From positions 30,011-94,010 of the forward strand of contig VCMS01000337.1 of NCBI GenBank assembly GCA_022539475.1: a stretch of DNA of 64,000 nt, written 5' to 3'. The position numbers and the translations under genes were made by a program. Position 1 is the stretch's first letter. Each line of letters starts with the position of its first letter. The notes beneath the pieces were generated by a model. It ran no database searches. It had not been told where the DNA came from and saw only the letters and a program-made list of their open reading frames with translations. Of the stretch, positions 58,831-60,668 are shown piece after piece. The DNA is from Gracilaria domingensis (Eukaryota > Rhodophyta > Florideophyceae > Gracilariales > Gracilariaceae).

Positions 58831-60522
58831 TTACGCGCCGAACGGTCCAGCACCTGGGGTGCCCCCACTACCGGGAGCCCCGGAGAAGCGCTGTGCCGCT
58901 ATTGCCTGCAACTCCGACTCGTCGGTCACCTTATCGGGAACGGCCACTCCCACGCCTCGAAGGAAGTCGCGAATGACCGCCGCTCGCGGAGTGAGAGAAG
59001 AACTGCCGCCCACGGCGGATGCTACATCCTGAGCCCACGGGCCGGTCGGAGCGGGAGCCGCTACAGCGGGCGGGTCAACGATCACGACTTCGTCGTCATC
59101 TCCCGTAGCGTCGGGCTCCGAGGCAACCCCCACTGGGCTCCCCTCATCCATGGGACTTCCTCCCTCTTCAGGGTCATCACCGTCATCGTCAACGTATACG
59201 AACCCACGCGGGTGCCCTTCCGGGATATATCGCTCCTCTCGGCGGCGACCAGCCGCCTCAGCGGGACCAATTACCTCCCAAATCCATGGGTCAAAATATA
59301 CGAAGTCGCCGGCGTTGACGTTCCGTCCGGGAGAACGGTCCGACTGCCGACGGACCCCGTCGGAAACCTGACTAGCAGGCACCTCATTCCAGTCAATCTG
59401 GTCAATGACGTCCACCAACGCGGTGGCTTCGCGCGCATTGCGGACCGAGCCGAGCACTTCGGAGAGATCCAACGCTCGGATCGCTTGCCGGATGAGTTCC
59501 GGGATGAACCAAACTCGGTACGAATCATATGCCTCGATGAGGAGGAAAGCCGCAACGCGGACGGTCCATTCTGTTGCCAGGATGCTCCACAGGCCGCGAG
59601 GCGGATCATTCATGAAGTACGAGCCTATGTAAGTTAGGCAGGGCGGTAGCTCTACGTGACACCCTCGTGGGACTTCGACCGCAGGCCAGAATGACGGCAG
59701 CGGCAGGTATCGCCCAGTATGGGAGTGACGCGCAATGCGTTCCACCTCCGTGCACTGGTACGGCACCAGTACCCCGAAGCGGGAACGCCATTTCCTCTCG
59801 AAGCGGAGGCCTTCATGAAATTGAGACCGTCCAGGACGGCGAAGGAACCGGAACTCGGCGCGAAGGATCGGCCGCGCCCACAGGATCAACTCCTGCTGCG
59901 GCTGAACGGTATCCGAATATCGGTCAATTTCGTCCAACGCGTTGGCTAGATGGTCGCCGTAGCCGACCTCGCCGAAAGTTCGGTAACGTGCCACATCGTA
60001 CTGGTACTGTGCCGGCACCGGATGTTCGTTCGGAGCTCGGAAGTGTCGCGCGTACCCAATGCGGGCCATCTCATTGCGAGCGAATTGTCTCGTCTCGTTT
60101 CGACCTACAAACAGGCAGCTCGGTATAACCGCAACGCGGGCGATCCAGTCCCATGAACGGGTAACGTCAGCAGGAAGCCCACCAGGGAGTTGACCGTCGA
60201 CAGCGTACGAGTCGACGAGCTCTGTATCCCGAACGGCTTCGGCGTCAAACCAGGGAGCCTGGGCAAAAAGGAAACTGTGCCGGTGGGGATCCCGGATGCG
60301 TAACGCGCCTGCGGTAGGCCATCCACCCAGCGTAGCTGGCATCTCGGCGTTGAACCAATCCCACACGGGCGCGGGACCAGCCTGAGCTGGAGCGTGATCT
60401 TGTCCGGAAGAACCCGGCTGGGAGGCAGCCGCCGACTGCGGGAGAGGAACAGACCGGAACGGCGGGTTCGATACTTGCATGCGTGCCGTTGAGGACGGAG
60501 GGCCGTTCGGTGCGTTGGACAT
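58831..60522 (-). CDS. RE3 antisense ORF (aORF), intact
   Basis: Protein of unknown function, transcribed toward pol from near the 3' LTR. The frame is open from 60630, but that ATG overlaps the TATA box, so the ATG at 60522 (MSNAPNGPPSSTARMQ) is preferred (563 residues; 599 otherwise). A Pro/Ser-rich N-terminus precedes a ~330-residue domain with PWFDAEAVRDTELVDSYAVD, LPGGLP, YRTFGEVGYGD, ILWARPILRAEFRFL, LPLPSFWPAVEVPRGC and YIGSYF. An acidic C-terminus (VDDDGDDPEEGGSP; DDDEVVIVDPP) and a Gly-rich end follow. These blocks match the RE2 antisense ORF. It is rich in Trp and Arg, with no signal peptide or zinc motif. It may act as a nucleic-acid-binding or regulatory factor; that is a guess. 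Confidence 0.85.
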   Translation of the reverse strand: MSNAPNGPPSSTARMQVSNPPFRSVPLPQSAAASQPGSSGQDHAPAQAGPAPVWDWFNAEMPATLGGWPTAGALRIRDPHRHSFLFAQAPWFDAEAVRDTELVDSYAVDGQLPGGLPADVTRSWDWIARVAVIPSCLFVGRNETRQFARNEMARIGYARHFRAPNEHPVPAQYQYDVARYRTFGEVGYGDHLANALDEIDRYSDTVQPQQELILWARPILRAEFRFLRRPGRSQFHEGLRFERKWRSRFGVLVPYQCTEVERIARHSHTGRYLPLPSFWPAVEVPRGCHVELPPCLTYIGSYFMNDPPRGLWSILATEWTVRVAAFLLIEAYDSYRVWFIPELIRQAIRALDLSEVLGSVRNAREATALVDVIDQIDWNEVPASQVSDGVRRQSDRSPGRNVNAGDFVYFDPWIWEVIGPAEAAGRRREERYIPEGHPRGFVYVDDDGDDPEEGGSPMDEGSPVGVASEPDATGDDDEVVIVDPPAVAAPAPTGPWAQDVASAVGGSSSLTPRAAVIRDFLRGVGVAVPDKVTDESELQAIAAQRFSGAPGSGGTPGAGPFGA

Positions 60523-60615
60523 CGCGGGAGGGCTCGAGATGACGAGGTTCGCTACTGACACCGGAGGTGTTGGTGGCTCCGAACAGTTCTCGGCAGACCC
60601 GTCTTGGGAGACTTC

Positions 60616-60623
60616 CTTATATA
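60616..60623 (-). promoter_or_regulatory. TATA box of the RE3 antisense ORF
   Basis: TATATAAG on the minus strand, 60 bases from the 3' LTR edge, is the same octamer as the LTR promoter. RE2 has TATAAATA at 62 bases from its LTR edge. Confidence 0.65.
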
Positions 60624-60668
60624 CCTCCATCGCGAGGCGTATCGAGCCGACGGAGTCGGTGTCTCAGC

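Follow-up and report, generated by a model that had tools for sequence, protein, structure and literature searches.

The 64,000-nucleotide (nt) stretch of Gracilaria domingensis DNA analysed here (the window; part of contig VCMS01000337.1) contains the Ty3 chromovirus RE3 (49775-61539, plus strand) and its diverged relative RE2. Between the chromodomain and the 3' long terminal repeat (LTR) of RE3, an uninterrupted frame of 599 codons, counted from its first ATG, lies on the strand opposite to gag, pol and the chromodomain open reading frame (ORF), as claimed in an earlier note on this DNA. Homologous antisense frames have a fixed place and orientation in several element families of this genome, and their amino acid sequence is under constraint.

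The antisense proteins of RE3 and RE2 are homologous. BLASTP aligned them with 139 of 307 residues identical (45%, E 3e-83), and their C-terminal pieces with 51 of 170 (E 6e-12). From the PWF motif onward our recount gave 27 identities in 48 residues, against 26 counted before, and the sense-strand proteins are diverged as had been stated (gag 48% and pol 70-73% identical). RE2 has the mirror arrangement, with pol on the minus and the antisense frame on the plus strand. Here the claim of a counterpart at 6449-8504 holds for homology but not for a single intact ORF, since the frame shifts near 7926 and continues to 8504. Other copies of the RE2 family keep an unbroken antisense frame of 703 codons.

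The genome searched was a 77.9-Mb assembly of 680 contigs. RE3-family matches numbered at least 73 with scores, 52 of them free of internal stops among the matches listed. The RE2 piece gave at least 89 matches, including fragments and other families, and two homologues from outside the genome used as queries gave at least 78 and at least 83 scored matches, which added further families. In five families, 8-28 stops interrupt each of the other five reading frames of this DNA. Because of these stops and the many stop-free copies, the antisense frame is not a chance occurrence. At least five diverged families bear it: F1 (RE3), F2 (RE2), F3 (type locus L029), F4 (L031) and F5 (L050). Loci L036-L038 form a sixth group that is closer to F2. 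The frame is thus not confined to the two elements of the window, as at least three further families have it. An alignment of 12 members shows invariant residues in blocks that include PWF, LRAE-R, PY and W-VP.

A piece of pol or chromodomain was found at 54 of 59 loci, in every case on the strand opposite to the antisense frame; at L023, L039, L051, L052 and L058 there is none within reach. Hence, the sense orientation of an env-like gene downstream of pol was found at no locus with a detectable neighbour. Locus counts are rough, since partial copies are included and some contigs may be duplicated in the assembly. At L011 there is also an extra weak match to the antisense queries, on the other strand.

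Among the five families, reverse transcriptase (RT) is 80-91% identical and the core of the antisense protein 44-75%. Both proteins give the same pairs as closest and as most distant; the pair F1-F2 is discordant, with close RT (87%) and distant antisense proteins (45%). Inheritance of the antisense gene together with pol is supported by this broad agreement. In a different chromodomain element, C6 (RT 40-45% identical), no antisense homologue was found in the 3.5 kb from the chromodomain onwards. Named homologues outside this genome come from Gracilariopsis chorda (66% identical) and Agarophyton chilense (30-37%).

Selection on the protein and its start codon

Ratios of nonsynonymous to synonymous substitutions (dN/dS) were obtained pairwise from Nei-Gojobori counts for F1, F2, F3 and F5, from sets that favour intact frames, which is a remaining bias. 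In F2, the pair L012-L034 has a dN of 0.078 and a dS of 0.557, that is a dN/dS of 0.141 (95% interval 0.110-0.180, codon bootstrap); the ratio is 0.17 for L012-L035 and 0.24 for L012-L028. For RE3, the eight copies ranked best by protein score gave 0.32 over the full frame. Since a choice by best score pushes dN downward, seven lower-ranked intact copies were added. Counted from a conserved internal methionine, these gave 0.20, and 14 copies gave 0.16. A dN/dS near 1 is therefore excluded for both families of the window (0.14, 0.11-0.18, in L012-L034; 0.16-0.20 in RE3 copies). Changes are in excess at the third positions of the antisense frame in L012-L034 and in the RE3 copies, and the other frames of the same DNA have ratios of at least 0.79, with the exception of the sense frame that shares its third positions with the antisense frame. 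The selection for a protein that had been inferred from the long frame is thus borne out as purifying selection on the antisense frame.

That sense frame is the basis of another reading, in which the antisense frame merely shadows a sense-strand protein; its dN/dS is also low (0.23-0.34 in three F2 pairs with L012), but it exceeds that of the antisense frame in 5/5 pairs. In five families, each of the three sense frames is interrupted by 8-28 stops over the length of the ORF, so that this reading is already contradicted and has virtually no chance of being right.

Substitution patterns in four families place the onset of constraint at the conserved internal methionine, not at the first ATG. 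In RE3, dN/dS is 1.51-1.89 in the leader and 0.08-0.14 in the segment just after this residue. From before to after it, the ratio falls from 0.73 to 0.24 in F2 and, with few changes in either family, from 0.87 to 0.38 in F3 and from 1.83 to 0.35 in F5. The methionine is present at 14/14 loci in F1, 19/23 in F2 (the segment was not found in the other four), 7/7 in F3 and 6/6 in F5, and the outside homologues P0005 and P0008 begin at or near it. Because the constraint switches here, translation probably does not begin at the first ATG. The selected RE3 protein appears to begin at 60522, which gives 563 amino acids (aa), the same length that the earlier note had quoted.

Codon-level constraint from one methionine in four families marks selection on a protein. 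Consequently, an antisense transcript that acts as RNA, with an incidental frame, is contradicted as the sole explanation. Convergent transcription would indeed yield double-stranded RNA, and control by such RNA is discussed for plant elements in PMC7264820; we regard an RNA-only role as highly improbable.

Organization of RE3 and RE2

RE3 is a young insertion. Its LTRs differ at 1 base in 857 by blastn of both ends, and a target duplication, GAAAC, flanks the element at 49770-49774 and 61540-61544. Ty3-type RT, ribonuclease H (RNaseH) and integrase were all matched in pol (RVT_1 among the Pfam matches), and the chromodomain is positioned after the integrase, as in Ty3 chromoviruses.

Table 1. 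Features of RE3 and RE2 in the window.
Feature	Positions	Strand	Basis or remark
RE3 5' LTR	49775..50631	+	857 bp; blastn of two ends
RE3 gag ORF, 669 aa	50796..52805	+	48% identical to RE2 gag
RE3 pol ORF (RT, RNaseH, integrase)	52922..57076	+	Pfam PF00078, PF17917, PF17919, PF17921, PF00665
RE3 ORF with terminal chromodomain	57326..58324	+	PF00385, E 1.2e-7
Spacer between convergent genes	58325..58830	.	Five CCGC-N5-GCGG palindromes at 58369-58521
RE3 antisense frame, 599 codons from first ATG	58831..60630	-	Open-frame reading
RE3 antisense gene from conserved methionine, 563 aa	58831..60522	-	Bounds set by selection
Leader, putatively 5' untranslated	60523..60630	-	No third-position excess, dN/dS >1
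TATATAAG, candidate promoter element	60616..60623	-	Kept in 11/14 RE3 copies
Polypurine tract adjoining 3' LTR	60671..60682	+	Similar sequence in 5/5 families
RE3 3' LTR	60683..61539	+	857 bp; blastn of two ends
RE2 3' LTR, approximate	5602..6381	-	Includes masked stretch
TATAAATA, putative promoter element upstream of conserved methionine	6442..6449	+	
RE2 antisense frame, N-terminal piece	6449..7939	+	BLASTP homology to RE3 frame; conserved methionine at 6596
RE2 antisense frame, C-terminal piece, different frame	8046..8504	+	BLASTP homology to RE3 frame
RE2 gag-pol, several frames	9889..16642	-	
RE2 5' LTR, approximate	16921..17686	-	

The palindromes in the RE3 spacer lie within about 150 nt. 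Across the window there are 12, against 1.1 expected. Among 67 loci, the RE3 loci L001-L008 contain 7-8 copies apiece; three occur at L053 and one at each of eight others. Beyond the stop codon of the antisense gene, CTTCTTC-like sequence abounds on the antisense strand in this spacer and at L012, L029, L031 and L050, so that the sense strand is purine-rich there. RE1 (1-2800), another element of the RE2 family, adjoins RE2 in the same orientation and extends beyond the window; its antisense frame, L019, is outside the window.

Candidate promoter and properties of the protein

In three families, the antisense strand has a TATA-like element in the interval from the polypurine tract to the conserved methionine. 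It reads TATATAAG at -101 from the methionine in F1, TATAAATA at -154 in F2 and TATTTAAG at -176 in F5. A scan of 21,976 nt of antisense strand from five loci detected four TATA-type motifs, three of them in these leaders and one more in F2, 537 nt upstream. Since the pattern was chosen after the leaders had been seen, no probability is claimed for this placement. The motif is retained in 11/14 copies of F1, 20/21 of F2 and 5/5 of F5. These counts used 14 of 16 loci in the RE3 family (the window copy L002 and L052 omitted), 21 of 23 in F2 (L021 and L023 omitted) and five of six in F5 (L051, which has no leader, omitted). In three F2 pairs, the 100 nt with the polypurine tract, the LTR edge and the F2 TATA element are the slowest noncoding stretch (2-8% diverged vs 33% at third positions), which is only supportive because the polypurine tract is itself constrained. 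From these sequence features, a TATA promoter of its own, just inside the 3' LTR, likely drives the antisense gene.

Alternatively, the mRNA for the same protein could originate in the 3' LTR, as antisense transcripts of human T-cell leukaemia virus (HTLV) do, or further out, and be spliced at the reverse-complemented polypurine tract. This complement resembles a 3' splice site, as it is pyrimidine-rich and ends in TTAG or TCAG at the LTR edge in 5/5 families. Furthermore, the leaders of F3 and F4 contain no TATA-like element, and the HTLV antisense promoter is located inside the 3' LTR according to PMC7264820. However, any polypurine tract reads this way in reverse, and the TATA element is downstream of the complement in three families. 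We take this start seriously as a possibility, at a probability well below even.

The antisense protein measures about 560-640 aa among the families and combines a proline-rich N-terminus, an arginine-rich core and an acidic tail with an isoelectric point of 4.1. The core is predicted to be mainly helical (predicted local distance difference test score, pLDDT, 74.5; predicted template modelling score, pTM, 0.68), and the predicted structure matched no viral or solved fold. Pfam searches with 12 members gave nothing significant; weak hits to E3_binding (E 0.029) and DUF6415 (E 0.14) came from one member each. There was likewise no match to sequences in the PDB or to NCBIfam, which agrees with the statement in the earlier note that the protein resembled nothing recognisable.

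Lysine is scarce, with 2 residues in 563 (F1), 0 in 636 (F2), 8 in 580 (F3), 9 in 575 (F4) and 0 in 628 (F5), where the base composition at each codon position would predict 8, 11, 13, 15 and 11. The lysine content of RE3 gag and pol is above expectation. The scarcity is not universal, since lysine accounts for 35 of the 668 residues of P0009, a member from outside this genome. Lysine deserts have been reported to avert ubiquitylation; an escape of this kind by the antisense protein is speculation.

Proposed function and related systems

Antisense ORFs are known from the Retand/Tat lineage (Grande gene23, RIRE2, Retand), and those of Retand carry the TRP28 domain (PF04195). The earlier note had drawn a parallel to Grande and the Tat lineage, and it stands for position and orientation as these are described in PMC11963269 and PMC7264820. 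As with the Retand/TRP28 genes, the frame is antisense to gag-pol and between pol and the 3' LTR (54/54 loci with a neighbour, 59 examined). A relation to TRP28 was not found, as PF04195 matched none of the 12 members at E values up to 10. A genome search with PF04195 was silent and so were its 14 controls, hence it is uninformative. Retand elements are non-chromoviruses of land plants, whereas the elements described here bear a chromodomain. Typical chromoviruses are not known to have such an antisense gene.

According to PMC7264820 and PMC11963269, antisense transcription of maize Grande gene23 starts from a promoter upstream of the gene and the protein is nuclear; here the TATA-like element in 3/5 families is a candidate counterpart. 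Boty of the fungus Botrytis cinerea also has an antisense ORF between pol and the 3' LTR, outside land plants (PMC7264820), a likeness in position. HTLV too has antisense genes at its 3' end (HBZ, APH-2), and there the product is a regulator. HBZ is a basic leucine zipper (bZIP) protein, and no bZIP match was found by Pfam in the antisense members. According to PMC7264820 and PMC11963269, it is still unknown what antisense genes do in LTR retrotransposons. A literature search, largely outside subscription journals, returned no report of an antisense gene in retrotransposons of red algae. Grande and Retand have antisense genes at the corresponding site; here the protein is unrelated and the elements are chromoviruses.

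Our best guess is that the product is an accessory regulator like Grande gene23 or the retroviral antisense regulators. Taken together, we favour, with slightly better than even confidence, an antisense gene of a Ty3 chromovirus lineage that is under purifying selection, likely has its own TATA promoter and likely encodes a regulator that serves the element in trans. The antisense mRNA would start some 30 nt beyond the TATA element and run toward pol, convergent with gag-pol. The product would then work in trans for the element, either by nuclear control of sense transcription or by protection from silencing. Action for the element is proposed because selection acts over transposition cycles and not on one host copy.

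Several observations weigh against this regulator with its own promoter. In F3, dN/dS is 0.68 over the whole frame and 1.03 at the C-terminus; it is 0.46 over the whole frame in F5 and 0.54 in the pair L034-L035. Such high ratios are expected if the differences arose partly after insertion or in decaying copies. Third positions in F2 (L012 vs L034, L035 and L048) are 33% diverged and LTR plus spacer only about 14-24%, which may reflect recombination or constraint on the LTR. In all five families, the 47-93 codons that precede the conserved methionine contain no stop, which a pure leader would not require. The promoter assignment is weakened by three of the 14 RE3 copies, which read GATATAAG, and by the leaders of F3 and F4 mentioned above. 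Finally, no domain or fold match backs any biochemical role.

A bolder proposal, which we consider doubtful, is a stealth effector with a new fold. Nearly free of lysine and expressed from a private promoter, it would evade ubiquitin-dependent destruction and shield red-algal chromoviruses from host silencing, as an HBZ-like gene that arose independently in red algae. A structural instead of a regulatory role, as a partner resembling Gag or an envelope protein, is unlikely for the antisense protein. Its length and its rate of divergence, about that of gag (45% vs 48% identity between RE3 and RE2), would suit such a partner, but antisense expression would uncouple the protein from the packaged RNA, and the missing viral or solved fold and significant Pfam match speak against it. 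Still less probable is a captured host gene that is merely carried by the elements. No significant similarity to known retroelement proteins was detected, as would fit this origin; however, matches beyond this genome are to proteins annotated as unnamed, hypothetical or unnamed product, and the gene is at the same place in several families, broadly co-inherited with RT.

For the regulator that we favour, the mapped start codon and the many near-identical copies mean that tests of promoter, RNA and localisation can be aimed precisely. The antisense gene of these red-algal elements provides codon-level evidence that selection keeps the protein, in another Ty3 lineage and with an unrelated antisense protein. 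This points to a repeated origin of accessory genes on the opposite strand next to the 3' LTR.
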